NCBI GenBank assembly: GCA_016787575.1 | Contig: JAEUUO010000010.1 | Location: forward strand, 62,001 to 126,000 | Origin: Saprospiraceae bacterium | GTDB taxonomy: Bacteria; Bacteroidota; Bacteroidia; Chitinophagales; Saprospiraceae | DNA length: 64,000 nucleotides | Reading direction: 5' to 3' | Shown: in pieces, positions 125-20,746 of the stretch | Layout of the letters: each line of letters starts with the position of its first letter | Numbering within the stretch: position 1 is the first letter of the stretch | Position numbers and translations under genes: made by a program | Notes under the pieces: generated by a model | Seen by the model: only the letters and a program-made list of their open reading frames with translations | The model's database searches: none | What the model was told of the DNA's origin: nothing

Positions 125-3100
125 CTAATTAGTCAAAAGCAATTTTCGTGTGCCAACAAAATTGTCTGTTTCCAGCTGGTAATAATAAATACCCGCACGT
201 CCAATCTCTTGTTGTTGTAATGTCACTTTATTTTTGCCTTTTTCTGCTACAAATTCCTTTTTTAATATAATATTTCCTCTTACATCAAATACTTTCAAGA
301 CCACCAATTGTTTTTCCGGAACCTGAAAACCAATTTGCGTTTGTTCGCTAAATGGGTTTGGCTGATTTTGATACAATTCACATGTCAATTGGTTTGGATC
401 TGTTCCTCTTTGAGCAATTGCAATATTCATGATATGAATTTGATCATCATATGCTTCGGATTTTAAGGTATTTGGATTTAATTCCAATAATTGTAAGGCA
501 TTGCATGGACTAACAATTTTAAATTCCATATAAAACAATGGCTTGCTGGTTGATTTCAATGCTACGTTGCTGCTCCAGCTAATTAATACCTGTGCATTTT
601 GACCTTCAATTACTTTATAATTACTAGCATTTATTTCAAGTTCACCAGAACGCAATTGGATAAATTGCGCATAATCTGAATTAAACTGCAATGCAAACTG
701 GAATCCATTTAATTGGGTCTGCCAACTTCCATAAACCGGAATTTGTACAGATGCTGCAGGAGTTAAATTTGATTTATCTAATCCTAGAATCAAGCGGTCC
801 CCTGAGCGACTTTCGCTGGATGTATTTAAATCAGTAGTTTTTGCACTGTAATTAACATCACCCATTTTAATACCCATGAAATCCATTGAAGCATTAACTC
901 CTTGCAAATCTTTAAGTTCGTATTGATTATCCCATGGATAATTCAACCATGGATTCTCCTGATCTGTAAATGTCATGCTATTCTTAACAAATGCCCATGA
1001 ATTTACACCATCCTTAAACGAATCGGTGATTCCAAGAATTAATTTACGCAATTCTGAAACGTCTGCTGCAGTGATCGATTTTGAATTGTTAACGTCGGCT
1101 GCAATGTATTGGTACACTGAAGCAAACTTTTGAACACCCAAAATATGTTTTTGTATCAATACTATATCAGCAGTTGATATTCCATTTGCTACATCGTCGT
1201 TCTTATTTGGCGTCAATTTATAGTTTCCTCCTTCAGGAATATCCACAAAAGTGAATGTCCCCGTTTTCTCAGAATTAATTGAACCAAACATTACATCTGA
1301 TTTAAATAAATCCATATGGGCATTTTGCAACACCGAACTGTTGTTAGTACTTACCAATCCTGAAATAATACCACCATTAGTAAATTTATCTGGACAAACA
1401 CCAGGACTTCCATCTTGTAAGAATAATTTAGTATCACAGAAACTCTGATTACCAAATAAATCAGTTACATACATTCTTACTATTACAGAGTCTTGTTTAC
1501 CATTTCTGATATTTGCACATGTGTAAGTTTTGAATGAATCAGAAGGATTTGTACTATAAGAAAATTTCAATAAATTTTGCGGCGTGCAATTGTCTTCACT
1601 CTTTTGATCAAAGGTTCTTGCAGGAACTGTAATAGATCCATTTGAAGGCATAACAACTGTAATAGCACCTACTTTACAAATTGGCGTTGGCGCTTTGCAA
1701 TCTCTAATTGTAAACAATTGATTGCAAGTTGCTGTATTTGCACATGAATCTGCGACCGTCCATTCAACTTTATGGGTTCCTACCGGGTATTTTCCACTTG
1801 CATTGTTTCCAGGATTAGAAGGTCCAAACGACCCGTCATTGTTTAAATCAATCCTATAGGACCAGATTAATTTATTGGCATCAGTACAATCATCTGTTGC
1901 ACGACCAATTAATTCTATGTTCCCATCACAGGTTAAATCATTAGCACATGCCTCTTTTGCTGAACACGTACTATTTTCCAAAGTAGGTGCAACTTTATTT
2001 CTCAAATAGATCAATTGATCTCTGGTAAACAATCCTCCATTTGCTGGATTATTCACATCATATAAACACCAATCAATAACTCTCCAATGACGAATGATTT
2101 TAATACAATATCCTCCAACACTGTAAAATCTTTCATCTGTATAACCACTTATTAAATTGCTGCAAGCTGTTTTAGTAGGTGGAATTGGTTTGCCTGCAAA
2201 ATCAGGATGTGCATCTGCTGCTTTGCATCCGTCAATTATAATATCAGCTGGCCAGATTATTGAATTGCTGGTAACCGGATTCTGATCAATTACAGTGATG
2301 TATTGATCGCAGAAGGTTGAAATCCCACCGGCAGTGGTTGCAGTCCAACGTCTTCTTATTAATCCTGTACCGCATTTCCATGTCAGTGTATCATTTCTAT
2401 AAGTAATGGTTGTATTTGAACAAATATTGGTAGCTGTAGCACGACCTAAAAGTGTAAGATTGGATAAATCAGTTCCACAATCTACTGTTATTGGATTTGG
2501 ACATGTAATTGCAGGCGGAGTTTTTTCCTGTACCGTAACCTGAACCATACAATCATTGAAATTACCCTTTTTATCCCATACCCGAAATACAACCATGTGT
2601 GGATTACGAGTTAAATCTTCACAACAGAAAGTTACGTAGCGTCCAAATGTTGTATTGTTTGAAATACCACACCAGTCATTCATTCTGCGAATCGCCATTG
2701 AATCCAATTCACAATTATCGTAACTGCCTTGATTTACTGATGTAGCAAACAATTCACCAACACCTTGATCGTTTATAGAAACTACTGTATGCTGATCGCA
2801 AATAGCAACAGGGTCCAATCTATCAACGATTAATACTTCAATACGGCATCTTGTACTATTTCCACATGCATCCGTAACTACATATTGTACCCAGGTTGTA
2901 TCCTGAGGCAATCCTGTAATTACTGCATTACCTCCCTGGTAACTGATATTATCTGTGCGATAATCGCCTGCTTCAGGCTTACCATCCGGGCCTGCTAATT
3001 TATACTCTACTGTAAAAGTGGTCGCTGAGCAATCTGTAATTAAATCTGGTGGGGGAATTGTTGCTGTTCCCGTACATTCGTAATAGTCAGTTGGGAATGT

Positions 3101-4420
3101 TATATAGTTTCTGCTGCAAGAAACGATTGGAGCACGTTCATCTGTTACTTTTATAAATTGAACACATTCAGTCAAAGTCCCTGTACACCAGTCAAATATT
3201 TTCCAATTGCGCAATAACTTAAAAGAATTACCACAAACAGGAATTCGAATATCTCTAAATGTTACAGCAATGTGATCACAACTAACTCCCGCAGGAAAAC
3301 CAGTTCCTCTCCATATTAGTTGACCATTTCTATAATAATCATAAGGTGAAGGATTGCCATTATCCAAAGCATTCCAACCTGCAGGGTAAGGTGCAAATGG
3401 ATACTCTATACTATCGCATTGCAATGGTGGTCTTTGAAATCCATCATAATTTGGAGGGCAAACTAAATTTGCCAAAGTAGCCTGTATAATATAAATAGAA
3501 TCGGTGCAAGTTGATTTATTTCCTTTACAGTCTGTTGCAACCCATTTACGCTCAACTTGAGCATATGGATAATTATTACATCCGTTCTTTTGATAATAAT
3601 CTGTGTAACACAATTCTACATCACAACATAAGTCAAAATTCTTTACCACAAAACATTGTTGGTGTGTTGGATGCGGTGTATGGGTCGCTCCTATTGGCAA
3701 CGGAAATCCAATTGTATCAGGTGAATAATCTCTGTTGCATGCAACTATATATGGACTTGGGTTACAAGTTAATTCAGGTATAAACTTATCTTCAATATAA
3801 ATTCTTCCCCAACAGGCAACACCTGAACATAAATGTCTAACATGCACTTTCAATGTTTTCCCTAAATGACTGTAATCAACAATATTTCCTGGAATAGGAA
3901 TATTATTAACATTATAAACTGTAACCAAATACGAATCGTCTGGATACAATTCACCTTCCAACATTACATCAGGAGTAATTAATGCCTGACAATTTCCATT
4001 TAAAGAAACATTCACAAGATCATCACATGCCAGTGAATAATCTCCTTCAACGTGAACGCGTTGGGTGTAAAATCCACCGATTCCATTGTCAAGACGCATT
4101 AAATAAATGCCAGGAACATTTCCCCAGGCGATCATAAAGCTATTTGCTGGACCTACAGGTGAAAGCAATGTGCCACCACCATTCAGTAATTGAATGGTCC
4201 ATGGTCCTCCACTGAAATTGTAATTTACAGTGGTTCCAGGACATACACTGGTGTCTCCGCTAATATATTGCGCGGTTCCAGTACTTGCATAAACAAACAA
4301 CAAACCGATTGCTACTTGTAAACGCATCTTGCTGAACAGCGCATTTAGAAGAGAAAACCCTTGAAGAGTTTGGAATATCTCTTTCATAATACTATTTTTT
4401 AATGGTAACTTCTTGGTCAT
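125..4420 (-). CDS. Giant Cys-rich T9SS-secreted surface protein A (dockerin-like and cohesin-like modules)
   Basis: Predicted extracellular protein of 1431 aa, fourth and last of the tandem paralogs. The N-terminus has a signal peptide ending around TGTAQ near residue 51. A second in-frame ATG at 4387 would shorten the n-region and is equally plausible. A PKD-like head (to about residue 130) precedes a Cys-rich stalk that starts with the block containing CWGRIYIEDK and continues with hyalin-repeat-like units marked by DxxxPxxxC and two W-x-x-x-DWC motifs (FDWC and VIDWC). A dockerin-like EF-hand pair lies at about 1075-1130 (ISTADIVLIQKHILG, then AADVNNSKSITAADVSELRK), a cohesin-like beta domain at about 1210-1330 and a T9SS type A sorting domain at about 1343-1431 (QNQPNPFS, then GIYYYQLE). 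Module names come from family resemblance. The substrate or binding partner is unknown. Confidence 0.85.
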   Translation of the reverse strand: MTKKLPLKNSIMKEIFQTLQGFSLLNALFSKMRLQVAIGLLFVYASTGTAQYISGDTSVCPGTTVNYNFSGGPWTIQLLNGGGTLLSPVGPANSFMIAWGNVPGIYLMRLDNGIGGFYTQRVHVEGDYSLACDDLVNVSLNGNCQALITPDVMLEGELYPDDSYLVTVYNVNNIPIPGNIVDYSHLGKTLKVHVRHLCSGVACWGRIYIEDKFIPELTCNPSPYIVACNRDYSPDTIGFPLPIGATHTPHPTHQQCFVVKNFDLCCDVELCYTDYYQKNGCNNYPYAQVERKWVATDCKGNKSTCTDSIYIIQATLANLVCPPNYDGFQRPPLQCDSIEYPFAPYPAGWNALDNGNPSPYDYYRNGQLIWRGTGFPAGVSCDHIAVTFRDIRIPVCGNSFKLLRNWKIFDWCTGTLTECVQFIKVTDERAPIVSCSRNYITFPTDYYECTGTATIPPPDLITDCSATTFTVEYKLAGPDGKPEAGDYRTDNISYQGGNAVITGLPQDTTWVQYVVTDACGNSTRCRIEVLIVDRLDPVAICDQHTVVSINDQGVGELFATSVNQGSYDNCELDSMAIRRMNDWCGISNNTTFGRYVTFCCEDLTRNPHMVVFRVWDKKGNFNDCMVQVTVQEKTPPAITCPNPITVDCGTDLSNLTLLGRATATNICSNTTITYRNDTLTWKCGTGLIRRRWTATTAGGISTFCDQYITVIDQNPVTSNSIIWPADIIIDGCKAADAHPDFAGKPIPPTKTACSNLISGYTDERFYSVGGYCIKIIRHWRVIDWCLYDVNNPANGGLFTRDQLIYLRNKVAPTLENSTCSAKEACANDLTCDGNIELIGRATDDCTDANKLIWSYRIDLNNDGSFGPSNPGNNASGKYPVGTHKVEWTVADSCANTATCNQLFTIRDCKAPTPICKVGAITVVMPSNGSITVPARTFDQKSEDNCTPQNLLKFSYSTNPSDSFKTYTCANIRNGKQDSVIVRMYVTDLFGNQSFCDTKLFLQDGSPGVCPDKFTNGGIISGLVSTNNSSVLQNAHMDLFKSDVMFGSINSEKTGTFTFVDIPEGGNYKLTPNKNDDVANGISTADIVLIQKHILGVQKFASVYQYIAADVNNSKSITAADVSELRKLILGITDSFKDGVNSWAFVKNSMTFTDQENPWLNYPWDNQYELKDLQGVNASMDFMGIKMGDVNYSAKTTDLNTSSESRSGDRLILGLDKSNLTPAASVQIPVYGSWQTQLNGFQFALQFNSDYAQFIQLRSGELEINASNYKVIEGQNAQVLISWSSNVALKSTSKPLFYMEFKIVSPCNALQLLELNPNTLKSEAYDDQIHIMNIAIAQRGTDPNQLTCELYQNQPNPFSEQTQIGFQVPEKQLVVLKVFDVRGNIILKKEFVAEKGKNKVTLQQQEIGRAGIYYYQLETDNFVGTRKLLLTN

Positions 4421-4477
4421 GATGAAGAAATTTTATATCGTTTAATTAATTTTGATTGATTCGGTATTTGGCTTTCA

Positions 4478-4503
4478 TCCGGGAACGTTTTACTGTTCCC
4501 GGA
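4478..4503. repeat. Intergenic hairpin between giant genes B and A
   Basis: TCCGGGAAC and GTTCCCGGA form a perfect 9-bp inverted repeat with an 8-base loop, 25 bases past the stop of gene B and about 58 bases before the start of gene A. No T-run follows on the minus strand, so it is a poor intrinsic terminator. It may be an mRNA-stabilising or processing hairpin between cotranscribed genes, which is inference. Confidence 0.6.
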
Positions 4504-4528
4504 ATCAGCCTAATTACCCAAGAACCGT

Positions 4529-7500
4529 TTATTTTAAAATAATCATTTTTCGTGTTGAACTAAATCGATCAGCATCCAGCTTGTAGTAAAGCACTCCATT
4601 TGAATTAAAGTCCTCACTTTTAACTTTTAGCGTGTTGATTCCTTTTTTAGCAGCTATTTCATAAGATTTCAACATCTTCCCGGAAATATCATAAAATCCA
4701 ATCATTACGTGTTCTTCCTCCGGAACACGGAAGTAGATATTCGTTTCACTGTAAAAAGGATTTGGAATATTCTGGAATAACTCATATGATTCGTCTGCTT
4801 TATTATTTCTTGATCGGTAAACCAAAGCAATTTCATAATCTCCACCTTCAACATAGGCTTCAGCAGCATATTCATCCTGATTCAATTGAAGTGTATTGAA
4901 GTTTAACTGGCCATCTTGCTTCGCCTGACAAACTATATAAAATAGATTCTCAGAGTTGCTTATCAATTTAGCTTGGTTTGCATTCCAACTTAATCGAATT
5001 GTGCCATCAACCAATATATGGTAGTTAGAATTTTCAATTTCCAAGCCAGCTGATTCAATTTTAACAAATTCAAGTTGTCTGGTATCTAATTTCAGTTCAA
5101 ATTGAATTCCCATTAAACTAATGTCATTGTTAATACTATGAATTGGAATTTTAATTATCTCATTTTTTACATAATTGGCTTCTCCTATCTCAAACACAAG
5201 ACTATTATTTGTTCTGATAGCTGCAGTTTGATTTTGCAATCCTGTATTTGCTTCACCTGTTACATCTCCAGTCTTGATTGAAATAAAATCAACATTGGTT
5301 GCAGATTGATTAAAATCATTTAGTTGAATCTGATTTTTGTATGAAGCAAAATTATCAGCAGTAATTGCCCAATTTGCATCCACAAAATTCCAGGATTTAT
5401 TGTTTTCAAAATGCGTATCAATTCCTAAAATAAGCTTACGCAATTCGCTGATATCCCTTGCAGTAATGCTACCTGAACGGTTTACATCCGCTGCAATGTA
5501 CTTATACGGTGAATCCAATATTTCCAATCCTAAAATATGACGCTGAATTTTTACAATATCCTTAGTTGAAATACCATTTAATGGATCTTTATCATACTCG
5601 GGAGTTAGTATATAATCCTTGTGCATATTTAAATTATTAAATACATAAGAACCAGTACCATTTGTATTACCTGAAGTTATTGCACTACCTGCAGATTGTA
5701 CATTCACCAATACATCTGGGGAAGGATTTTGATTGTAGCCTCTGATGGCACCTCCTAAATTTCCAAATGTTGGTACATCTGGACATACATCCTGGTTATC
5801 TTGAATTATAATATTCGTTCTGCAAAAATCTTGATTACCTGCTAAATCGGTAACAAACATCATTACTTCTACAGTATCTGCCTTTCCATTTGCTAAATCT
5901 GCACATGTAAATACGCGTGAAATATTATTGGTGTCACTTGAAAATGAATATCTCAATTCAGGCTTCTCTGTACAATTATCAAATGATCCAGCGTTAAAAT
6001 CTTTAGCCCATATGGTTACAGAGCCATTGTTTTGCATCAATACAGTAACAATACCAGGCAAACAATATGGTGTTGGCTTCTTACAATCTACTACTGAAAT
6101 CAAATAGCTGCAGGTTGACTTATTTCCGCACTGGTCTTCTACTGTCCAGCTAATTCTATGTTCACCTTGTACTAAATCATAGTAAAACTTGTTATTAGTA
6201 CCTGTGATGATTCCTCTTCCATCATTATTTATATCAAACTGATAGGTCCACCGCAATTCATCCTGAGGAGTGCATTTATCAGTAGCTGTTGCCTCCAGTA
6301 AAACATTTACAGAACAATCTGAAGTAATGCAATATTGCTTGTTGTCGCATGAACTTGTAAATGTAGGCGCATCTGTATTGTTAATTTTAATTACTTGCGT
6401 ATGATACCAAACACCTGTAGGATTTGGCAATGCTGCTGGATTGTAGGTACACCAGTCAATTACTGTCCAGGTTCTTAATATTTTGTAACAGACTCCTTCA
6501 ACATAATTAAACGAGAGATCTGTATATGAAGAAATCGGTTGATTACAGGCATCTCTGTTTTTATAACTAGGTCTGCCTGTTACACTCGGATCCGGACTAT
6601 CTGTACATCCAGTCAACAAAATATCTGCTGGCCAAATAATATCATTCTTTGTAAAGGGGCTATTATCGTACACTGTTATAATTTGTGCGCACGAATCCCG
6701 AAGTCCGCCGTTATCAATTGCTATAAACTCGCGAACGATTGTTCCAACATTGCAACTCGTAAGATTGTTAGAAACTCTGGTTTCAATTCTAACAGTACAA
6801 TTGTCAGTAGCAGTAGCAACACCAAATGCATTTAAATTACTTAAGTCTGTACCACATGTTACACTTATGTTTTTAGGGCACGTAATTTTTGGAGGCAATT
6901 TATCTTGAATAAAAGCATCCACCATGCATTCACTTCTGTTTCTTGAAGCATCAATTACACTCAAAACCACTCTAACAGGAACAGTAGAAGAAACATCTGC
7001 ACAGCAAAATTCCTGATCTGCCCTAAATGAAGTCGTTCCACAAGGTCCAGGATCCATTCTCCGTACTTCAAAAGTTACCGGACCGCAATTATCATGACTG
7101 CGATCGTTAAACACAGAAGCTGGAACAATTGCCTTTCCATTTGATCCCAATGAAATGACAGTTTTCTGTTGACAAACTGCAACCGGAGGCGTTTTATCTT
7201 CAACCACAATATCAAACTGACAAACAGTAGAATTTCCACATCCATCCGTAATTACATAATAAATCCAATTACAACCCAATGGCATGTTGTCTACGCGATA
7301 GCGGCCATCTGCAAGTTTTGTGATATTCTTTGTATCTCCTTGACCTGGTATGGGTGTGCAATCATTTGGATTGGTGGCAGGCAAATGTTTAACATAATAA
7401 GTCCAGCCTGAACAATTTTCAATCACCAATGGGATCGTATTTGAATCAATAGCTGTAGTCGGTGTCCAATCTATAGGTACAGGTAGAATCAAAGATCCTG

Positions 7501-9001
7501 TACAAGACCATGGATTGGTATTGACTGTATAATTTTTTGGGCATGTAACCAATGGTTGCTGATCATCAACAACTTTAATTTGTTGAATCCAGTCAATTCT
7601 AAATGATGGATTGCACCAATCTAAAATGACCCACCTACGCAACAACTTATAAGTACCTTTACATACCTGTAATGTATCATCAGTAAAATCAAATTGTATA
7701 TTTCCACAAAATACTCCTGATGGACTACCCGTACCAGATGGAGAAGTATCCGGAAATCCATTACTTAATTTGGTCCAGTTTCCATCACATTTTAACATTG
7801 GCAAATTGCCAGGCTGCCCATCGTAATGACGTGGCAAAGTTATATCAGCAAGTGTTCCTCTACGCAAATCAATGGTGTCATAACAACAAGCTGTAAATCC
7901 ACCTGGATCTCTTGCGCACCATTTACGAAATATGGTTGCACTCAATGAATCATTTGAACAATCATATTTAACCAAACTATCCTGGTATGTTAAATATACA
8001 ATACCACATGAATCTATGTGTCTTACAATATAAGGGTAGACACTTTGATCAACAAATGAGCTATTTACTGGAAATCCCAATGCTTGTGGAGATGTATTTG
8101 CTGCACAACTAATGGTGTCGCGCAAACGACAATTTAATGCTGGTGGAGTCTTATCCTCCAAAATCATGTATCCCCAGCAGTTGTTGTTACAAACTATATT
8201 TCTTACATTAACTTTTAATTTCTTATTTAAATACGATTGATCTAATGGAAGATTAATCCGTTTAGTACCATCATAGATAGTAACTTCAAAAAATCCAAGA
8301 TCAGCACAATCTGCATATTCGCCTTCTAGTATCATTGCAGCAAGTATTTGCGCTTCGCAAACACTGTTTACAGAAATTTGCACCTGATTATTACATGCCA
8401 ATTGACAATTAGTCCAACAATCCGGTATGCTCACAATATTTGAATTAATGATGGTTTCAGGAACTGTCGGACCATGACTAACGCTAAATTGATTGTTTAA
8501 AGGAGATGGAGCACCAGAGATTCTAGGATTTACTTCATAGGTAACACTGTAAGTCACTTCTTCATAACCAACCGGAATATTAAAAAATATCCCTGATCCA
8601 TCGGTTAAATTGTGATTTGGTGCAATACCAGTAAAACCAGGATTAATTGTTCCAGCATTAAATGGATTGGTTGCCGCAACAATTACAGGTGTTCCAACCA
8701 CTCGTATAAAGGCAGAACCTAAATTTGATGGTAGCGATGGTTCATCAAAAACATCCACACTTGTAGTTACAGGACATGTGTTTCTCAGATGCAAATGATA
8801 AGTGACATCAATATTACCAGCGATTCCACTGGAAGCAGGTGCAACACCAATCAATGTTTTTGTCAAATCTAAACACTGAGCATCGGCTTGCTGCGTGGCT
8901 GCCCATGTAAACAGCAAGACTGCAATCATTTGTTTCATCTGAAACAAGCATCGTGCGCGGCTCCAGATTGATAATTGCTTTGGGTAAAGTAATTTGCTCA
9001 T
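4529..9001 (-). CDS. Giant Cys-rich T9SS-secreted surface protein B
   Basis: Predicted secreted protein of 1490 aa. The start at 9001 (MSKLLYPKQ) is preferred over an upstream ATG at 9157, because the upstream part translates an intergenic hairpin and would bury the signal peptide (MKQMIAVLLFTWAATQQADAQ). The head, residues about 43-200, looks like a DUF11-type beta domain unlike those of the sister proteins. The shared stalk then begins with CWGYMILEDK and carries hyalin-like DKTPP units and two DWC motifs (ILDWC, VIDWC). The dockerin-like pair is at about 1139-1192 (ISTKDIVKIQRHILG, AADVNRSGSITARDISELRK), followed by a cohesin-like domain at about 1270-1392 and a T9SS type A domain at the C-terminus (QNIPNPFYS, GVLYYKLD). 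Probably cotranscribed with gene C upstream. No enzymatic motif was seen. Confidence 0.85.
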   Translation of the reverse strand: MSKLLYPKQLSIWSRARCLFQMKQMIAVLLFTWAATQQADAQCLDLTKTLIGVAPASSGIAGNIDVTYHLHLRNTCPVTTSVDVFDEPSLPSNLGSAFIRVVGTPVIVAATNPFNAGTINPGFTGIAPNHNLTDGSGIFFNIPVGYEEVTYSVTYEVNPRISGAPSPLNNQFSVSHGPTVPETIINSNIVSIPDCWTNCQLACNNQVQISVNSVCEAQILAAMILEGEYADCADLGFFEVTIYDGTKRINLPLDQSYLNKKLKVNVRNIVCNNNCWGYMILEDKTPPALNCRLRDTISCAANTSPQALGFPVNSSFVDQSVYPYIVRHIDSCGIVYLTYQDSLVKYDCSNDSLSATIFRKWCARDPGGFTACCYDTIDLRRGTLADITLPRHYDGQPGNLPMLKCDGNWTKLSNGFPDTSPSGTGSPSGVFCGNIQFDFTDDTLQVCKGTYKLLRRWVILDWCNPSFRIDWIQQIKVVDDQQPLVTCPKNYTVNTNPWSCTGSLILPVPIDWTPTTAIDSNTIPLVIENCSGWTYYVKHLPATNPNDCTPIPGQGDTKNITKLADGRYRVDNMPLGCNWIYYVITDGCGNSTVCQFDIVVEDKTPPVAVCQQKTVISLGSNGKAIVPASVFNDRSHDNCGPVTFEVRRMDPGPCGTTSFRADQEFCCADVSSTVPVRVVLSVIDASRNRSECMVDAFIQDKLPPKITCPKNISVTCGTDLSNLNAFGVATATDNCTVRIETRVSNNLTSCNVGTIVREFIAIDNGGLRDSCAQIITVYDNSPFTKNDIIWPADILLTGCTDSPDPSVTGRPSYKNRDACNQPISSYTDLSFNYVEGVCYKILRTWTVIDWCTYNPAALPNPTGVWYHTQVIKINNTDAPTFTSSCDNKQYCITSDCSVNVLLEATATDKCTPQDELRWTYQFDINNDGRGIITGTNNKFYYDLVQGEHRISWTVEDQCGNKSTCSYLISVVDCKKPTPYCLPGIVTVLMQNNGSVTIWAKDFNAGSFDNCTEKPELRYSFSSDTNNISRVFTCADLANGKADTVEVMMFVTDLAGNQDFCRTNIIIQDNQDVCPDVPTFGNLGGAIRGYNQNPSPDVLVNVQSAGSAITSGNTNGTGSYVFNNLNMHKDYILTPEYDKDPLNGISTKDIVKIQRHILGLEILDSPYKYIAADVNRSGSITARDISELRKLILGIDTHFENNKSWNFVDANWAITADNFASYKNQIQLNDFNQSATNVDFISIKTGDVTGEANTGLQNQTAAIRTNNSLVFEIGEANYVKNEIIKIPIHSINNDISLMGIQFELKLDTRQLEFVKIESAGLEIENSNYHILVDGTIRLSWNANQAKLISNSENLFYIVCQAKQDGQLNFNTLQLNQDEYAAEAYVEGGDYEIALVYRSRNNKADESYELFQNIPNPFYSETNIYFRVPEEEHVMIGFYDISGKMLKSYEIAAKKGINTLKVKSEDFNSNGVLYYKLDADRFSSTRKMIILK

Positions 9002-9063
9002 CTTGAATAATTTATTTGTTTTAGTATTTATCTTTTTACAATTTGAATGACAATTTTTGAGAT

Positions 9064-9083
9064 CCTCAAACGGTTCTTTGAGG
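9064..9083. repeat. Intergenic hairpin between giant genes C and B
   Basis: CCTCAAA and TTTGAGG form a 7-bp inverted repeat with a 6-base loop in the 148-base gap between the stop of gene C and the preferred start of gene B. There is no T-run, so it is not a convincing terminator. A hairpin at the equivalent junction between genes B and A suggests a shared role in message stability or translation. Confidence 0.4.
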
Positions 9084-9149
9084 GTATAATGAGTTTTGAT
9101 TATTAAAATATGGGGGTAAAAACGGGAGTATAATTTGAAAACGATCTCT

Positions 9150-12100
9150 TTATTCAATAAGAAGCATTTTCCGTATGGCTCGATGTCCTTCCATTTCTAA
9201 TTGGTAATAAAGTACACCAGCCCTGTTTAGTTCCCGCTTATCGATTTCCACCGTGTGAAAACCTGATTTATAGAATTGGCTTAGATTCATAAGTACACGC
9301 CCATCTACATCTGTTACTTTCAATCTTACTTCACCATCTTTTGGAAGTTGAAATGAAATATTGGTAGATTGGCTAAATGGATTGGGTTGGTTTTGAAACA
9401 AGTAGAATCCATTTATCGATACATTATTATTGTCGTAGAATTTCAAAGCAAGATCAAATGCTTCTGTATTTTCACCATAAGCCTCTGCTTTAAAATTATT
9501 GTTCATCAAGGTCAAGCTTCTGCTCAAATCACCTTTGCGGTTTGCTCTAAAAACCAAAGTAAACAATGTTTCTGAGGCATCTACACCACTTACATGTTCC
9601 CAGCTCATACGCATTTTTCCATTTGCAAAACCATTGCTGATAAAATTGGAAGCATCCAATTTAACTGCACCGGATTCAATATCCACAAAGCTCAAACTGG
9701 ATGGATCAAAATTAAATTCTGATTGCATGCCATAAATTGTTCGCGCTGCATTAATCCTTACAGGAACACGTACCAATTCATTTACAGAGAAATTTACATC
9801 CGGAACTGCTATTTCCATTACACCTGCAGTTCTGGATTGTATAGCTCCCAGTTGGCTTGTTCGTGCATTTCCACTTACGTCACCCATTTTGACTGCTATA
9901 AAATTATTGTCTAATTTATCTGAGCCTAATTGGTTGATAGTACTATTTTCATTAAAAGGCCATGGATGATTGATGTCGGTAAATACCTGACTTGCATTTA
10001 CAAATTTCCAGGATTTGTGATCTATAAAATCAGTAGTAACTCCCAGAATCAATCTTCTTAAATCGGAAACATCCTTCGCAGTTATTGATTGCGAATTGTT
10101 TACATCCGCAGCAATCAATTTATAAGGAGAATTCAACAGTTGCAATCCCAAAATATGTCTTTGGATTAATACAATATCCTGTGTAGTTACTCCATTTAAT
10201 GGATCATCTGTCTTTTCAGCAGATAATATATAATTTTCGTTTAATGGAATTTGTATAAATGAATACTGTCCATCCGGTCTCGTCATTTCATACTTTGGCA
10301 TGCTTGGCATATTTGCATTTAAAGTCACCATAGCATTTTCAACCTTGCTATTAGCTTCGTTGTAAATATTTCCAGCAAGATTTCCAGTTGAACCTCCTCC
10401 AGTCAAATGATCCGGACAAGCATTTCCCAAACCATCCTGTATAATTACTTTCGTATCACAATAATCGAAGTTATTATTTTCATCCCAAACGTAAATACGC
10501 ACATCAAACGATTGAGAAACTCCATTGTCAATTTGCGAACAAGTATAGGTTCTGGATCGATCTGATGGATCCGATGAAAATGAGTAATTCAATCGTTGTG
10601 GAGGGGTACAGTTATCAAAACTTTTAGAATTGAAATCTGATGCCCATATTGTGATTTGACCATTAGATGGCATAATCACAGTTACAATACCCGTCACGCA
10701 AACAGGAGATGGTTTCTTTTTATCAAGTATGGTAAATAAATAAGTGCAGCTTGTAGCGTTTCCGCATTGATCTGTTACAGTCCACTTGATCCGGTGGGTT
10801 CCAACAGGATATGTTCCACTTGCATTGTTTCCAATTCCTGTATAATCTATAGAACCATTATTTCCTAAATCAATCTCATAATTATAAACCAACTGAGCCG
10901 GCTGACAATCATCAATTGCTGTTGCCACCAATGTTGCAAATCCGTTGCAATCTGATGAGATGCCTTCAAATGAAACATCTGAACAACTACTAGTGAAAGT
11001 AGGCGCAATAGAGTTTTTAACTTTTATTACTTGAGTAAACGACCATCTACCATAACCGGTTTTGCTATCATATATACACCAATCAACTACCGTCCATTTG
11101 CGCAAAACCTTAAAGCATACATTTTCCACAATACTAAATACCTGGTCATCGTAAGTTGCCAATATGTTTGAACAAGTTAGATTCGTTGGCCAGCTTGGCT
11201 TTCCTGTTACATTTGGATCTATGGCAGCATGACATCCATCTACTTCAATAGGAGATGCTGGCCATGAAATAGCACCATTAAATGGAGTTGAATCAACTAC
11301 AGTAATATACTGATCACAAGTATATGGAGCATTAAAATCATCATAAAAGGTATACCTCCGTAGAATATTTCCAATTCCGCAATGATTTAAAGCATAACTA
11401 ACAGAAGAATCTATGTGTAGATTGCAATCTTCAATGACCAATCCATCGTAACCCCATAAATGTGGTTGTACAAATTTATCATAAGTAGGATCGAATAACT
11501 TTATAGATCTTCGATCAGCTGCATCTCTTCTGTATGTACCAAATACGCCTAAATTAGAATAATCGAATTCACAGCTAATTGTAATATTAGGCAAGCAAGT
11601 TACCACTGGTGGTTTTTTATCCTGAACTATTACACGCACCATGCATTCATTGGTGTTTCCTGCAAGGTCTGATACTTCTAAAACAACCAAGGTTGGATTA
11701 TTTGGTATATCGTTACAACAAAATTCTACATACGGACCGTATTGATCATCTGCCTTAATTGGACTTGGACAATTTCCAGGTGTCATCCTACGAACCCGAA
11801 ATCCTCCCATGGCGCAATTGTCATGCGAGCCGTCGTCAAAGGTTTCTGCATAAACTTTTGCAGATCCATCATCTGTCAATGCTACAACAGTTTCCAAATC
11901 ACAAACAGCAATTGGCTTTGTTTTTTCAATCACAGTAACTTCAGTTGCGCAGGTATCAATATTTCCACAATTATCTGTGCCAATAAATAATACCCATGAT
12001 AAACCAACCGGTATGTTTTTAACTTTATAAAGCGAATCATTTAATTTAATTATTCCATCGGAAGATGCATCCAGTGCAGAAGGTGGAATATTAGGATCCA

Positions 12101-13484
12101 GAACACCTCTTTTAATTAATACGTTCCAGGTAATGTGCGAACACTCTTTAAAAGCCTGTGGTACTGCTATGGTAGTTTCACCTTCGCAGCTATTAGGCAA
12201 GGTAACAATGGTCTGATTTAATGAACAGGTTAAGATCAGTCGATCATCCAATACTTTAATTACTTGTATACAAGTAGTTGTACGACCGGTACACCAATCT
12301 GCAATTATCCATTCACGCAATATTTTATAGCTTCCTTCACATACTTTTAGTTTAATATCATTGTATGTAAAATCCAAATTACGGCAATGAACAAAACTAG
12401 GATAACCAGTTTCATCTGGATGAGGATTTCCCTTTGCATCCCGCAAATAAGGATCGCTGCAACTTAATGCTGCATGCTGTATGTTGTCATAATTGGGTGG
12501 GCATATAACTGCACCTATATCTCCAATGCGTATCAAGATAGTATCCGAACAATTGGTAATATTTCCGTAAGAATCTGTTGCTGTCCAATCTCTAAATACA
12601 GTATCTATATAAGGTACCGGTGGAGGGCAATTTGCATGTACTAACCGGTCCGTATAACGCAATGTTACAGGTCCGCAATTATCATATGCAGAATTGGTAG
12701 TGTAATACGTTCGAATCCCAATTGCTAAAGGATTGGTACCACCTGGAGGAACTGGAAAGCCAATATTTTCAGGAGCATAAAGCGCATCACAATTGATGGT
12801 ATATGTCGAACAAGCCAATTTAGGCTTGATTTTATCTTCTACTAAAATATATCCCCAACAATAATTTCCAGAACATATATGAGTTACATAAACAATATAA
12901 TATTTTCCAATATTAGATCCATTTACATACGGACTTGAATTCAATGGAACTCTGGTAACCGCATCTACAATTGTTATTGAATAATCCATTGAATCAAAAG
13001 GACCTTCTAAAAACATGCTAGGATAAATCAATGCACTGCAAAATTCATCCAATGATACATTGACGGTATCATTGCAATTCATTTGAGGCGCTGCTCTGTC
13101 AGATAGATGTATATTAAATGTATCCGCACACGCATTGCCCGGAGGGTTTATTACTTGAAAATACAAATTGTAATTTCCAGGAACATTACCCCAAACAACA
13201 ATAAATCCAGGAATTGCAGGATCAAAAGTTGCTGAAGTATATCCACCAATCGGTGCAATTGATAATTGATACGTGTAGGCTGCATTGTAAGTGCCCACTC
13301 TAAATCTAAAGGTATCAACTTCACTATTACATACCACTGATGTAACGCCTGTTAATGGAGAAGGACTCCCGCAAGGTTGTTGAGCATTGGAAACATTTAC
13401 TGCAAAACCAACTATTAGTAACAATTGCAATAAATACTTTTCCAAGGCAAACCTAGTGTCTCGTGTAAGTATTGGTTTATTCAT
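9150..13484 (-). CDS. Giant Cys-rich T9SS-secreted surface protein C
   Basis: Predicted secreted protein of 1444 aa. The start at 13484 gives MNKPILTRD followed by a hydrophobic stretch and a cleavage site near VSNAQ at about residue 35. A PKD-like head (FIVVWGNVPGNYNLYFQ) resembles that of protein A. The shared stalk opens with CWGYILVEDK and includes two DWC motifs (IADWC, VVDWC), the DDGSHDNC segment and DKKPP-type units. The dockerin-like pair is at about 1093-1147 (VTTQDIVLIQRHILG, AADVNNSQSITAKDVSDLRR). The cohesin-like domain spans about 1228-1350 (YGMQSEFNFDPSSLSFVDIE) and the T9SS type A domain is at the end (QNQPNPFSQ, GVLYYQLE). The terminator of the upstream gene implies its own promoter in 13,485-13,879, but no exact -7 box was found there. 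Confidence 0.85.
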   Translation of the reverse strand: MNKPILTRDTRFALEKYLLQLLLIVGFAVNVSNAQQPCGSPSPLTGVTSVVCNSEVDTFRFRVGTYNAAYTYQLSIAPIGGYTSATFDPAIPGFIVVWGNVPGNYNLYFQVINPPGNACADTFNIHLSDRAAPQMNCNDTVNVSLDEFCSALIYPSMFLEGPFDSMDYSITIVDAVTRVPLNSSPYVNGSNIGKYYIVYVTHICSGNYCWGYILVEDKIKPKLACSTYTINCDALYAPENIGFPVPPGGTNPLAIGIRTYYTTNSAYDNCGPVTLRYTDRLVHANCPPPVPYIDTVFRDWTATDSYGNITNCSDTILIRIGDIGAVICPPNYDNIQHAALSCSDPYLRDAKGNPHPDETGYPSFVHCRNLDFTYNDIKLKVCEGSYKILREWIIADWCTGRTTTCIQVIKVLDDRLILTCSLNQTIVTLPNSCEGETTIAVPQAFKECSHITWNVLIKRGVLDPNIPPSALDASSDGIIKLNDSLYKVKNIPVGLSWVLFIGTDNCGNIDTCATEVTVIEKTKPIAVCDLETVVALTDDGSAKVYAETFDDGSHDNCAMGGFRVRRMTPGNCPSPIKADDQYGPYVEFCCNDIPNNPTLVVLEVSDLAGNTNECMVRVIVQDKKPPVVTCLPNITISCEFDYSNLGVFGTYRRDAADRRSIKLFDPTYDKFVQPHLWGYDGLVIEDCNLHIDSSVSYALNHCGIGNILRRYTFYDDFNAPYTCDQYITVVDSTPFNGAISWPASPIEVDGCHAAIDPNVTGKPSWPTNLTCSNILATYDDQVFSIVENVCFKVLRKWTVVDWCIYDSKTGYGRWSFTQVIKVKNSIAPTFTSSCSDVSFEGISSDCNGFATLVATAIDDCQPAQLVYNYEIDLGNNGSIDYTGIGNNASGTYPVGTHRIKWTVTDQCGNATSCTYLFTILDKKKPSPVCVTGIVTVIMPSNGQITIWASDFNSKSFDNCTPPQRLNYSFSSDPSDRSRTYTCSQIDNGVSQSFDVRIYVWDENNNFDYCDTKVIIQDGLGNACPDHLTGGGSTGNLAGNIYNEANSKVENAMVTLNANMPSMPKYEMTRPDGQYSFIQIPLNENYILSAEKTDDPLNGVTTQDIVLIQRHILGLQLLNSPYKLIAADVNNSQSITAKDVSDLRRLILGVTTDFIDHKSWKFVNASQVFTDINHPWPFNENSTINQLGSDKLDNNFIAVKMGDVSGNARTSQLGAIQSRTAGVMEIAVPDVNFSVNELVRVPVRINAARTIYGMQSEFNFDPSSLSFVDIESGAVKLDASNFISNGFANGKMRMSWEHVSGVDASETLFTLVFRANRKGDLSRSLTLMNNNFKAEAYGENTEAFDLALKFYDNNNVSINGFYLFQNQPNPFSQSTNISFQLPKDGEVRLKVTDVDGRVLMNLSQFYKSGFHTVEIDKRELNRAGVLYYQLEMEGHRAIRKMLLIE

Positions 13485-13879
13485 ATCCGTATATTTATAA
13501 AATTCGTTTTTGCTCATTAATAAGTAATGCAGGCACAAATGGCCTGAAACCGTTTATGTGTAAATCTGGGTGGGGGGTAGGTGAAATTCAGAGTTCCCTC
13601 ATAAGGGATTGTCTCCGATTCTCTCTTCAATAATTACAACTAACATTCCAAAAAATGAGCTCGGATTATTACCCTTATTGAATAAATCTAATTTAAATAG
13701 ATTACTATTTGTTCTAATATATTAGTTACTTGAAAACTTGATTTTATACTTTAACTAAAATATAGATGGGGAAAAAAAAATTATATAAAAAGTTTTTTTA
13801 GGCTTTTTAAAATCAATACCCAAATTATTTGAAGAGGCTTCACTTGACACAAATGACTTATTATCAAGCACAAACACAT
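13485..13879. other. Intergenic region upstream of giant gene C, nothing identified
   Basis: About 395 AT-rich bases between the start of gene C and the terminator of gene D. It must hold the promoter of gene C if the terminator is efficient, but no exact TAnnTTTG is visible on the minus strand. A short TCCCT/AGGGA inverted repeat lies near 13,595. No ORF, tRNA or repeat was recognised. Confidence 0.5.
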
Positions 13880-13915
13880 AAAAAAAAGGGCACAAGATAA
13901 TTCTTGTGCCCTTTT
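13880..13915 (-). terminator. Rho-independent terminator of giant gene D
   Basis: AAAAGGGCACAAGA pairs with TCTTGTGCCCTTTT around a very short loop and is followed on the minus strand by a T-run. It sits just downstream of the 2110-aa gene stop. It separates gene D transcriptionally from genes C, B and A. Confidence 0.88.
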
Positions 13916-13945
13916 GGCTTTATTTTTTAAAGTTTAATCCACAAA

Positions 13946-16900
13946 TTAATCCATTACTAACATCCGCTTTGTAGCTGTAAAGTTTAATGCATCTAATTGA
14001 TAATACAGAACACCACTGGTGTTTAATTCGTCACGATTAATTTTAACTGAATTAAGTCCTTTTACTCCATTCAATTCATAAACCCTTAAGACCTTTCCTG
14101 TAACATCATAGATACTCAATTTGGCTAAACCAGCTGCTGGCAATCTGTAATTAATCACAGACTCTTTCACAAATGGATTGGGCGTGTTTTGATACAATTC
14201 AAAAACTCCACTTTCGACAATGCCTTTTTCCGTACGAATACTTAATAAGACATCTTTTGATTTTAACTGTGAATCATAGGCCTCAGCAATTGTAATGTCG
14301 CTTGTTATTGCAATTAGATTACTGATTTGAGCTGAGCCTGCTGCACGGAATACGATTGTAAATAAACCTGCTGAAGATTCAACGCTTATTGGAGTTTTAC
14401 TATTCCAACTTGTGGTTAAAATTCCTGACTCTACCCTATTGATTCCGAAATTAGATTCATCAACTGCCAGTGCACCAGCTTCAATTCCGACATAGCTTAA
14501 AAGCTTTGCGTCAAACTTTAATGTAAACTGGTATCCGGAAATATTAGAGAAATCACTTGCTTTAAATTGCAGTTTATACAATTCTCCAGCAACTAACGGA
14601 TTATTATCTACTTCAAAATGAAGTTGGCCATTGTTTCTACTGGTAGTACCTGAATAATTGTGTCCACGGGCATTGTTATTTACATCACCCATTTTTACAG
14701 CAATAAAGTCTTCAATTTTTTCAGTAGCGGTTGGCATAGGAACGATTATTTCTCTTGGCGCATTCCAAGGATTTTGAGCATCCATAAAATGATCCTTTGG
14801 AATAAACGTCCATGAATCAACCTTACTAAACTGATTCGAAACACCCAAAATCAACTTTCTGATTTCAGAAATATCAGCAGCAGTAATTGAAGAACTGTTA
14901 TTTACATCAGCAGCAATTAATTTATAAGGACTGTTTAATGTTTCAATGCCTAAAATATGGCGTTGAATTTTAACAATGTCTGCAGTAGAAACTCCATTCA
15001 ACGGATCATCAGTTCTTCTTGGCTTAACAACATACTCTTGAGCAACTCCATAATCCAGATCACCAAATAAATACAATCCATTGCTGGAAGTAGTCATTTG
15101 TTTTTTCATAACAGCTGATTCAATCAATTGAACCTCTGCATCCTGAGTTCCTTCATCGTTCAATGTTTTCAATTCACCGGTAATTCTACCAAATGAACCA
15201 ACATCAGGACATACGTTATGTGGGTCTTGAATTACAATCGTGGTTTTACAACAATCTTTATTTCCTTCTTCGTCTTCAACACAAATTGTAACAGGTATAA
15301 TTAATTCATCATTGATTTTACTTGAGACAAAATCTTCGCAACAGATTGTTACACTGTCAGATCCAAAATCATCAAAATATATTCTCAAGTCTTCAGGATC
15401 TGTACAGTTATCATAACTACCTGCATCCAAATCTCTTGCCCAAAGCGTTACACAACCACTGCTTGGCATTACTGTAGTGATTACACCTACATGACAATAA
15501 GGAGTTGGTGCTTTGCAATCTTTAATTTCAAACAACTGACAATTTGCAGCAATGTTTCCGCAACCGTCTTCTACAAACCAACAGATTTTATGGATACCAA
15601 TTGGATAACTTCCGCTCGCATCAAATGGATTGAATTCATCATCCGCTAATGGATTGTGATGCTTTAACGGGGTACGACCTGCAGCATATTCTTTTTTAGT
15701 GAGTGGACCAACTGCATAATCATATCCTGAATGAACTCCAATACCATCGTTGTAGATATCTATCTTGTAATCGTAAGATAACCAGTCAAGCGGACTGCAA
15801 TTATCAGTAGCATCTGCGGTTATAGTTATATGACCGTAACAAATGTTGTTTGCTGCATTTTTTACTGCAGGCTCACAATCACCGATTTCTACACTAATTA
15901 CTGGTTTATCTGTATCATGTACTTTTATAATTTGCAAATAAGACCAACGTCCTTTTAACGGATCAATGCTTGGATCGTATTGGCACCAGTCAATTACTGT
16001 CCAGTGACGCAAGACTTTAAAACAAGCATCCGGCTCAATGGTAAATATTTCATCGGTATATTCTATACTTATAAGGGCACAAAGATCATCAGCATTGTTT
16101 TCGATAACCGGTCTACCTAACAATGGATTGTCAGGACTGATGTCGGCACCGCATCCATCGATGGTAGTAGCTTGACCTGTACAATTACCTGGCCAGGTAA
16201 TGTCATCATCCGGATCACAATTGTCTGTACGATTGATATAAAATGGATCACAATCAACCACCCAAATGATTTGGGTACCTGTGACGCTGATTCCATTTGG
16301 ACCTCTCGCTACAATGGTTCTGGTAAGTTGACCCTGTCCGCATTCACGATTGTCGTTAACAGAAATTGAGTAATTGGTTCCACATGCACCTAAAACTGTA
16401 CCGTCAAATCCCCACACTAGCTCATATTTCCTATCATAATGAGCCGTATCAAACAAGAAACGGTAATACTCACATGCACGATTCCATGCAGGTGGATTTG
16501 AAGGTGGTGCACCTGGCACATAACCTGGATATCCAGTTATATCATTGCGTACACAATAATTATAGCAAACCAAATCATTGGTAACTACTTTATGTCTTTG
16601 ACTTAAATCATTTACTACACGTCCAAAAGTTGCATCATTTGGATCGGTTAATTTATCAACATCAAACCAGAACCAACAACTTACAACAATGTTTGGAGGA
16701 GGAACAACTGTAGGAACACTTTTATCCTGAACTTCAACTTCAATCATACAATCGCTGAAGCGATTAAATAATGGTCCACCTGGATTCATCCTGTTAGGTG
16801 CTATTGGTCCTGTTCCGGGATCACGGTCAAATACTCTCAACACGACCATTATAGATTTACCTACATCGGTACAACAGAATTTTACGTGATCATCAAAATA

Positions 16901-19900
16901 AATTTGATTTCCATCTAAAACTGGATTATCATCTCCGTTCACAGCAGCACAATTATTTCCATTATCTGCTTGATTAGCATTGCTACCATTATTTGTACCA
17001 CGCAATTGTTCCATGCGTATTACTTTAAAGAAAATATGAGGAGCGCAATTATCAAAACTTCCTTGGTTCAAATCTTTTGCAAATACTTTTCCAAAATTTT
17101 CACCAGGACTTTGATTGCCATTTATACTAACTACCGTTTTTTGATCGCAAACTGCAACTGGAGGCACGTTATCGACTACATTAACTGCGACTCTGTGTTT
17201 TGTTATATTTCCACAACAGTCTTCTGCAACGATGTAACCATTCCATACACCAGGTTCAATTCCGATAATTATATATCCTGCATTTTCATCGCCTAATACA
17301 GTACCATTTTCAATTTCAACGGTGTAATGAATTTCGTTGCTACAATTGTCCAACAACCAAGGTTTTGGAACTTCCCATTTTCCGGTACAAGTCCAAACTT
17401 CCATGTTTACATTAACTGTATCTGGATACAATACCTGAGGTCCATGTTTATCTACAACTTTAATAACCTGATTATGACCTCCAATCAAAGAAGTACACCA
17501 ATCCAAAACAGTCCATTTCCGCAATACTTTGTAACATCCGATCGGCCCTGCATCGCATCCAGGTTTAGCAATATCAATTACAATATCCTGGAAATTGATA
17601 CCTAAATTAGAACAACCGCTACCGCTTGGATAACCGGTACCTGCCCACATAACGACCTCGTCAGGACCCCAACAAACAGGATTGTTTGGTCTCCAGCTAG
17701 GATGTGCTGGATAATAGATTGGCCATGGACTTGGATGACCTACATATAAACCTGTATCTATACAATTCCATCCGAGTACTCTTGGCAAACGCTCTCCTGC
17801 TAAATCACCATTTGGACTTGGTAAAAATCCACCAGTAGCAAACCAATGGGCTGAATCCAGAATATATCCATCCACACAATATGGGTAAGCCAAATAATGG
17901 GGTGTATAATCTTTAGTAGTATTTATTTTTTCATCACAACCTAAAGCAGGTTCTTCAAGATCATCGTAATTTTTTGGAACGCTAACACTGTTTAAAGTAG
18001 CCAATCCAACAGTTATTGTTTGAACACATACTGCTTTATTCCCTGAACCATCAATGGCCGTCCAGGTACGAACAATTCTTTCTTCGTAACCAACCGCACA
18101 TCCACCTTGTGTTACAGCATCTTTATAGGTTAATGAATAACTTCCACAGTTTTCTGTAACTCTGGTTGTTCCTAAAAATGCAGGACTTAATTCAGTAGTT
18201 CCACAAGTAACACAGGTATCTCTAGCACACACTAAAATAGGTGCTATCTTGTCTTCTATTGTCAAATGACCCCAACATGAATTGCCTGTTGCAGGATCTC
18301 TAACCGTTACTTTAATTTCTCTTCCAATATCTTGTACACCAACTTGTACACCAGGTACATTCGGCTGGCGATCAATCAGGACATTTGTAATCCAATCTCT
18401 CAATTCTACAATATATAAATCATAACATTTGTAAGGACCACCAGAAAGCACTTCATCAGGACTGATGGTAGCAAAACAATTCTCATCCAAACTAATTTGA
18501 ATTTCATCATGACATGTTAACTGGGTAACTGTATTTGGATATGCGCGAACGCACACATCAAATACGCATGTTGAAGTATTGCCTGCGGCATCTGTTGCCT
18601 GGTAGCAAAGTGTTTTACATCCAACCGGGAAATAGGAACCAGGACCATATGGCTGACCGCAAGTTTGAACCACAGGTACCATCCCTAATGTTGCAGGATC
18701 AATTCTGGAATACAATACATCGCCTGGAAAACCAAAAGGACTGCATGCAATACCAAAATTTGCACCGGCTAAGTTGACTGAGATAACTCCAACGCTACCC
18801 GCTGGAGTATTATGCAATGGATTGATTGCAATAATGCTGTCTCCAAAATTTCCAGCTGCGCAAGTACCAAAACCAGGAAGATTCATACTATATCCTGAAC
18901 CGATAGTTCCTAAAATTCCAAATCCTCTGATTTCACCTGGATTTAACAATATACCCTTATCATCATTTGCTTGTTGAAAAATTGCACCTGAGTTATTACA
19001 AATTGGAGCTGTGCGATTTCCAACAACCGGTTTAGAAAGATAAATAGTGTCTTTAAACAATCCTGCTGTTCCTGAAGTCCATGCAGAAGTGCGCACTGAG
19101 TCAGCAGTTCCGGTTGTTTTTATTAATGACCATGCAGATTTAGGCATGTTGTTTAAACAAGTATTTCCAGCTGCAGGCCACCCACCTGTTGGTGCTGCCC
19201 TCCAAGATGTGTTTGCCGTATTTCTGGTATATACCTCATAGGTCCCAAAATTACTGGCAGAACCACCTGTAAAAGCTGATGAAAATCCACGAATGTAAAT
19301 TGGGCAATTGCTTTTATTTCTGATATCAAAAAAGTAACCACCACTGTCTCCGCAAGCATTGATTCCGCAGAAATTTTGAAAAAACTGATTGCATCCTCCA
19401 GACAATGCATTTTGGCCAAATACTATTGGAAATGGACAGTCATCCATAGCCATAAACATTGGAGCATTCCAAGCAGCTTCGCATTCACCGGGCCCTAAAT
19501 TGATAGTAATCCCTTTGCTTGGACAATTTAAAATAACAGGTGGAATTCGGTCATTTACATTGATTTCCTGAACTGTTGAAATTTCTTCACAGGTGTATTT
19601 ATTTATACTTGTCCATTTAATCTTTGTAATTCCATTAGGCAATTCGACTTCGCCTCCACATAAGTGATTGATATCATTAATTGCACGGATGTTAGATTGA
19701 GGGATTCTCAATTCAATATCTACCCAACTTTCCTGACAAAAAGGAAAAGAAGAACCATTGGTTATCAAAGAATTGGGCAATATTTTCCAACGCAAGCCTC
19801 CTTGTATTTGTGAATTGAATTCACAAAATGACATGGTACAGCTGCTCTCTACGACTTGACAATCAAGTCCTCCGACTCTACAGATAATAGTTCCATGTTC

Positions 19901-20278: not shown

Positions 20279-20341
20279 GAATTTGGTTATTCTATTAAAT
20301 AAATTCGTCTTTAATACCATATCTTTTAAAATTAAGCTTCG

Positions 20342-20568: not shown

Positions 20569-20746
20569 TTATTAGCTTCTTTTTTTATTCGGATGATATA
20601 TCGAAAACTATATATATAATTTTTTAAAATACAGCCTGTTGCACCATAAGACAGATTTTGATGAAAAATGGAGAATAAAGCAACTGAATGCTTTACTTTT
20701 ACGTACTCAGTCATATAAAAACTATATTTTGATTAAAAATCACAAC

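Follow-up and report, generated by a model that had tools for sequence, protein, structure and literature searches.

A composite dockerin–cohesin module at the C-terminus of giant Saprospiraceae proteins and a proposed surface-assembly system

The stretch of DNA analysed here (the window; 64,000 nucleotides, positions 62,001 to 126,000 of contig JAEUUO010000010.1 from the Saprospiraceae bacterium assembly GCA_016787575.1) encodes four giant proteins, A to D, each ending in one module of about 410 residues, which comprises a prealbumin-like domain with an apparently inserted dockerin, a linker of about 18 residues, a cohesin, and a type A sorting domain of the type IX secretion system (T9SS). 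The first-pass annotation, made from the letters alone, had reported dockerin-like and cohesin-like modules in the same polypeptide, four times over. This observation was confirmed by Pfam and family profiles, by sequence matches in the PDB and by the predicted cohesin fold, and the phenomenon proved larger than reported; its interpretation as a self-assembling matrix was partly supported. Cohesin–dockerin pairs, known from cellulosomes, are calcium-dependent and among the strongest non-covalent protein links known. Because the giants carry both halves of such a pair and relatives encode multi-cohesin scaffolds beside such genes, the data suggest an undescribed surface-assembly system that is not directed at cellulose. 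A functional, T9SS-delivered, non-cellulosomal cohesin–dockerin system on the cell surface is our best reading, at a probability of roughly 0.55.

Identity and layout of the composite module

All four open reading frames (ORFs) were found on the minus strand, as first annotated, and every feature of the giants given below lies on that strand. Giant A (125–4420; 1431 residues) comprises a signal region, HYR-type repeats, the C-terminal dockerin–cohesin module and the T9SS type A signal, and this architecture recurs in the others, including giant D (13946–20320; 2124 residues), with the long N-terminal part being HYR-type in a Pfam scan. Giants B (4529–9157; 1542 residues) and C (9150–13538; 1462 residues) are listed from TTG codons; for B, an in-frame ATG near 9001 (MSKLLYP...) is the more likely start, judging from the signal peptide. 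Module residues are numbered after giant C, with residue 1 at window position 10385. The modules of A, B and D align with that of C over their full length at about 36–38% identity.

The dockerins (A, 1022–1204; B, 5414–5596; C, 10032–10214; D, 14834–15016; module residues ~58–118) matched Dockerin_1 (PF00404) above the curated cut-off in all four giants when the genome was searched frame by frame (23.7–25.9 versus 22.9 bits), and slightly under it in the whole-protein scan (18.7–21.9 bits). The Cohesin profile (PF00963) matched at ~188–318 in C (9432–9824; 42.1 bits) and D (14231–14629; 36.6 bits) against a cut-off of 24.1 bits. The cohesins of A (404–799) and B (4811–5206) fell below this cut-off and scored 77.7 and 90.3 bits, respectively, with a family profile built without A and B. 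A comparison with hidden Markov models of both families had been proposed at first pass, with a lack of matches as the outcome that would speak against the assignment, and it returned matches to both. Within a set of 83 homologues, the dockerin profile matched 77 and the cohesin profile 64. The profile built from this set retrieved solved cohesins at residues 185–316 (3l8q, 5.8e-8; 4uyp, 4.6e-6) and solved dockerins at 62–117 (4uyq_B, 6.8e-5; 4uyp_B, 9.5e-5) from the PDB.

The whole module of C was modelled with AlphaFold2 (AF2) at a predicted local distance difference test (pLDDT) of 93.4 and a predicted template-modelling score (pTM) of 0.82. Its cohesin superposed on 6kge with a Z-score of 12.7 (2.3 Å over 119 residues), on 1ohz with 12.6 and on Archaeoglobus fulgidus 2xdh with 11.6, and a structure comparison with a shorter AF2 model yielded cohesins in 50 of 50 rows. 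The domain in C is thus predicted to have the cohesin fold, with type I cohesins among its best matches. The predicted helices of the dockerin (68–78, 87–93 and 103–114), together with its sequence matches, are as expected for that family. The sorting-domain profile TIGR04183 scored above its cut-off of 23 bits in A (128–379; 41.6), B (4532–4783; 25.9) and D (13949–14200; 29.1), and slightly under it in C (9153–9404; 21.9), whose C-terminus superposes on the C-terminal domain (CTD) of PorU with a Z-score of 10.5. The giants belong to a surface (T9SS) protein family, in keeping with their first-pass annotation.

Upstream of each dockerin, the Pfam match to a prealbumin-like domain breaks off about two thirds into the profile, where the dockerin starts: SpaA at 57/91 in A (1205–1375), CarboxypepD_reg at 53/82 in B (5597–5755) and at 55/82 in C (10215–10385; match 2–55/82), and SdrD_B at 63/112 in D (15017–15190). 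Downstream follows a spacer (A, 839–1021; B, 5246–5413; C, 9861–10031; D, 14666–14833), in which the chain re-enters the prealbumin-like domain before closing with an invariant K-x-G-D-V-N motif. Pseudo-likelihood coevolution analysis of 245 diverse modules, which recovered within-domain contacts, coupled spacer strands with prealbumin strands (15–164, 20–150 and 22–149; spacer residues 149–150 and 161–164) and the GDVN motif with dockerin helix 1 (74–170, z 11.5; spacer residues 165 and 170). Because the prealbumin matches stop at the dockerin and the spacer co-varies with the prealbumin strands, we infer that the dockerin is inserted inside the prealbumin-like domain, which the later strands complete. 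The module boundaries agree with stand-alone proteins of about 200 residues that consist of a signal peptide and the prealbumin–dockerin–spacer unit only. From the end of the dockerin to the start of the cohesin we measured about 70 residues, so that the 80–140 given at first pass was only approximate, and the linker from GDVN to the cohesin is of near-constant length (median 19, interquartile range (IQR) 18–19, standard deviation 1.3, n=284).

The EF-hand pair ascribed to the dockerin at first pass held for its second loop, the only complete one in the four giants, whose positions 94, 96, 98, 102 and 105 are complete in 97–100% of the 245 modules. The first loop is degenerate in the giants, with no ligand-type residue at position 5 and with T, N, D and T at position 1 in C, A, B and D, respectively. 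Across the 245 modules, it retains D/N at residues 59 (83%) and 61 (79%), S/T/N/D at 67 (99.6%) and D at 70 (100%).

As to transcription, a strong terminator-like hairpin (13884–13915; 14-bp stem and T run) follows D and another (70–97; 12-bp stem and T run) follows A, both on the minus strand; since each of these genes has its own hairpin, C, B and A may form one transcript and D another. Elsewhere in the window, a 1088-residue ORF divergent from giant D (20639–23905) had no Pfam match at E 0.001, and a secreted subtilase (29117–32035) that also has GEVED, fn3 and a weak T9SS tail is a possible surface protease of the same region.

Lineage distribution and scaffold-like genes

The named homologues come nearly all from Saprospiraceae or from metagenome-assembled genomes (MAGs) of unclassified Bacteroidota. 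Dockerin–spacer–cohesin units were found in 36 of 41 sampled genomes of the window's family, with up to 33 matches each and in proteins of up to 11,186 residues, and a match to a related profile lacking the cohesin was present in 180 of the 199 genomes of the family. Copies often number 10–30 per genome; the window's own genome has about 15 complete modules. A search of the phylum with the whole module returned mostly sorting domains and was repeated without them, which left one clear case (genome G131, 3.7e-41) and three weak ones among 145 other genomes. By sequence, the module is accordingly a hallmark of one Bacteroidota family, with Saprospiraceae as its named relatives. In the loci fetched, a recognisable cohesin follows 242–243 of 254 non-redundant dockerins (about 95%), a rate biased upward by the choice of loci with a profile that includes the cohesin. 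Among dockerins without one, two are truncated where the contig stops, and several leave enough space for a divergent cohesin. Chance pairing is excluded because this order is the rule in about 250 homologues.

Several single loci extend this picture. In the own genome, this dockerin also occurs in a redoxin (AhpC/TSA) protein (locus L133, 319–2088; contig C33), together with a divergent region that resembles a cohesin, and the module thus extends beyond HYR giants. Two own-genome contigs, C33 and C3, stop inside the sorting domain of a module (L127, 6074–6271; L128, 12542–12739); the assembly seems to have been interrupted by the repeated modules, and there may therefore be more copies than were counted. 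A full module on a contig filed under an alphaproteobacterial MAG (L038, JAJFHD010000048.1) probably marks a mis-binned Bacteroidota contig. Relatives of the module also lie in ORFs of 13,315 residues (G207:C1:1518096-1518548) and 11,186 residues (G078:C29:85319-86110), lengths among the largest of bacterial proteins.

Candidate partners were sought in 35 loci from 35 genomes. Each locus held a dockerin-free cohesin ORF, with one to ten cohesins and mostly with CHU_C, the type B T9SS signal, and 27 of the 35 also held a PorP/SprF gene. The multi-cohesin examples that were scanned bear SprB repeats as well, their cohesins being N-terminal. Scaffold-like ORFs with 3–10 cohesins were found, and the one in the own genome (L129, 11210–14338) has three. 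Within about 10 kb, a dockerin–cohesin giant was present in 13 of 35 windows and any dockerin in 18, against about 8% expected by chance according to our estimate from module density. A recurring gene order comprises a giant (dockerin, cohesin and type A signal), a protein of about 265 residues with a cohesin and a type A signal, the multi-cohesin protein and PorP/SprF; conversely, of 80 windows centred on a module, which together span 0.83 Mb, 7 contained a scaffold gene. Genomes without modules mostly also lack free cohesins (70/9/1/10; Fisher p 1.6e-7, no phylogenetic correction).

Stand-alone dockerin genes directly adjoin multi-cohesin genes in three cases (L381, L383 and L402); tiny secreted proteins approximating a signal peptide plus the prealbumin–dockerin unit are encoded there (L381, 1470–2075; L383, 12523–13116 and 19559–19999; L402, 6113–6769). 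Binding between polypeptides is plausible because multi-cohesin genes adjoin giants and stand-alone dockerin genes adjoin multi-cohesin genes. Other genes seen in these clusters include a LuxR-type response regulator between two dockerin–cohesin giants of the own-genome scaffold cluster (L129, 5846–6619; contig C17) and an Imm11-like (immunity protein) ORF between two giants in genome G123 (L343, 13289–14044).

Proposed docking and its alternatives

In the system that we propose, the giants would be exported by T9SS, with their type A signal removed during surface attachment, and would present a composite docking module made of the prealbumin-like domain with its inserted dockerin, the short fixed linker and the cohesin. 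PorP/SprF partners would keep the multi-cohesin scaffolds, which carry SprB repeats and the type B signal, at the outer membrane, and small cohesin-plus-signal proteins and stand-alone dockerin proteins would complete the set. Most likely, the dockerins would bind the system's cohesins with calcium on the cell surface, and this binding would connect the HYR giants with one another in a layer or in filaments outside the cell. As a tentative and more specific proposal, scaffolds held by PorP/SprF, with up to ten cohesins each, might capture tens of different HYR giants through their dockerins, with the giants' own cohesins branching or extending the array, which would amount to a cellulosome-like, non-enzymatic outer layer.

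On the cohesin sheet equivalent to the canonical dockerin-binding one, as assigned from homology and strand parity, residues are strongly conserved in the giants (Q221 99%, S261 92%, W262 85%, E301 91%, Y303 0.96). In the free (scaffold) cohesins, the corresponding values are 86%, 49%, 93%, 97% (E301, as read in 64 free cohesins) and 0.20, so that Q221, W262 and E301 are common to both groups. Q221 was rejected as proof of dockerin binding, given that cohesins generally have this residue, solved type II cohesins among them.

Several results weigh against a functional surface system of this kind. Position 5 of the first calcium loop (residue 63) has a ligand-type residue in only 12% of the 245 modules and lacks one in about 88%. 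The faces of the scaffold cohesins are partly unlike those of the giants, at S261 and Y303, and so may serve other dockerins. Dockerin–cohesin couplings in the coevolution analysis were no stronger than prealbumin–cohesin or spacer–cohesin ones; an apparent enrichment of couplings at the canonical faces, a level reached by about 1% of shifted versions, was dropped as confounded with conservation. The statistics ignore phylogeny, no scaffold gene lies beside the window's own giant cluster, and the fixed linker with the confident placement within one chain could mean that all sites are filled in cis.

This last point leads to the main rival, under which the dockerin of every giant docks with the cohesin of its own chain. 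The two would make up a rigid, calcium-stabilised head beside the T9SS signal that gives stiffness or protection to the stalk base, with no links between proteins. This rival is in keeping with the fixed linker, and also with an AF2 model of the dockerin–spacer–cohesin part alone (pTM 0.88, pLDDT 92), for which loosely tethered domains would, by our estimate, have held pTM near 0.6; we read the single-chain model as a confident placement of the cohesin against the dockerin unit. Moreover, conservation of the dockerin and spacer depends on the cohesin: 14 modules devoid of a cohesin lose K166 (6/14 versus 1/292), D169 (4/14 versus 0/292), H77 (4/14 versus 5/293) and N64 (12/14 versus 30/292), yet retain loop 2. 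These 14 are partly interrelated, so that p-values are too small. That H77, K166 or D169 is always relaxed without a cohesin, as the first five modules had suggested, was given up, since the pattern weakened with all 14, although the effect still holds. The faces of the giant cohesins are, in addition, more conserved than those of the scaffold cohesins. However, a model of one chain would dock any compatible pair in cis, whatever the situation in the cell, and does not distinguish cis from domain-swapped docking; the multi-cohesin scaffold and stand-alone dockerin genes of the same clusters are left unexplained. We regard exclusive docking in cis as somewhat unlikely. Within a functional surface system, the pair of each giant may nonetheless normally be docked in cis, with links in trans only to scaffolds or after opening.

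The head-to-tail matrix put forward in the first-pass annotation, in which giants are joined in series, dockerin to cohesin, and a surface matrix assembles itself without a scaffold, is clearly unlikely. Each chain has both modules, there are 10–30 similar copies per genome, and the near-invariant binding-side residues lead one to expect little specificity among paralogues. Nevertheless, the two modules, separated by only about 70 residues, are both at the very C-terminal end, and chaining would therefore link stalk bases rather than protein ends; dedicated multi-cohesin scaffolds are present; and the fixed linker favours docking in cis, with linker, AF2 placement and residue relaxation together fitting an intramolecular unit at least as well as chaining. 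That both folds are kept as mere spacer domains of the stalk, with no mutual recognition, would suit the degenerate first loop and the absence of significant dockerin–cohesin coevolution, but is the least probable explanation in view of the polar residues that hardly vary on the canonical sheet of the cohesin (Q221 0.99), the dependence of dockerin conservation on the cohesin, and the co-occurrence and clustering with multi-cohesin genes.

Comparison with known systems

Features that define cellulosomes were looked for among the proteins scanned. Scaffoldins with several cohesins have counterparts in the ORFs with 3–10 cohesins. Hydrolases on dockerins were absent from the scanned own-genome dockerin proteins, which carry HYR, DUF11, PKD or AhpC-TSA, and no carbohydrate-binding module (CBM) was present in the scaffolds of L129, L343, L344 and L346, which have cohesin, SprB and CHU_C. 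By these features, the predicted system is not a cellulosome. The open-access literature searched yielded nothing related that links Saprospiraceae with dockerin, and no description of a family-wide set of tens of HYR giants with nested dockerin and cohesin, type B multi-cohesin scaffolds and PorP/SprF. A T9SS-delivered, apparently non-enzymatic cohesin–dockerin system would, if true, widen cohesin–dockerin biology beyond polysaccharide degradation and offer protein engineers new orthogonal pairs.

In the type II X-module–dockerin (XDoc), an Ig/prealbumin-like module is joined to the dockerin. In the giants, by contrast, the prealbumin-like domain seems, from covariation, to enclose the dockerin and to be completed by strands after it.

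The first-pass annotation assumed that classical cellulosomes place cohesin and dockerin on different partners. This premise does not stand, as both in one chain are normal in scaffoldins and adaptor scaffoldins (PMC11557425) and are found in anaerobic methanotrophic (ANME) archaea, whose proteins may combine a single dockerin with as many as five cohesins (PMC9012536). The giants thus resemble clostridial scaffoldins and adaptor scaffoldins such as Acetivibrio cellulolyticus ScaB (PMC11557425), and A. cellulolyticus scaffoldins are also the source of the solved cohesins and dockerins nearest to theirs by sequence. They differ in having one dockerin and one cohesin, with the dockerin first and within the prealbumin-like domain, in bearing a T9SS signal instead of SLH or sortase, and in that no glycoside hydrolase or CBM occurs in the proteins of the system that were scanned. 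The non-cellulosomal cohesin of A. fulgidus (2xdh) matches that of giant C (Z-score above); with respect to A. fulgidus and ANME proteins (PMC9012536), the giants differ in secretion route, domain order and cargo.

The cloacimonadotal 'Ca. Stygibacter' likewise has a multi-cohesin scaffold with a C-terminal T9SS-type CTD, along with dockerin proteins (PMC8542988). In that complex, it is mostly enzymes that bear the dockerins, and the scaffold has CBMs, whereas in the present set HYR giants bear the dockerins, and the scaffold has SprB repeats, a type B signal and a PorP/SprF partner. Finally, a CHU_C protein adjoining a PorP/SprF gene is shared with the type B CTD anchoring of SprB–SprF and PG1035–PorP (PMC9143113), compared with which the proteins described here bear up to ten N-terminal cohesins.

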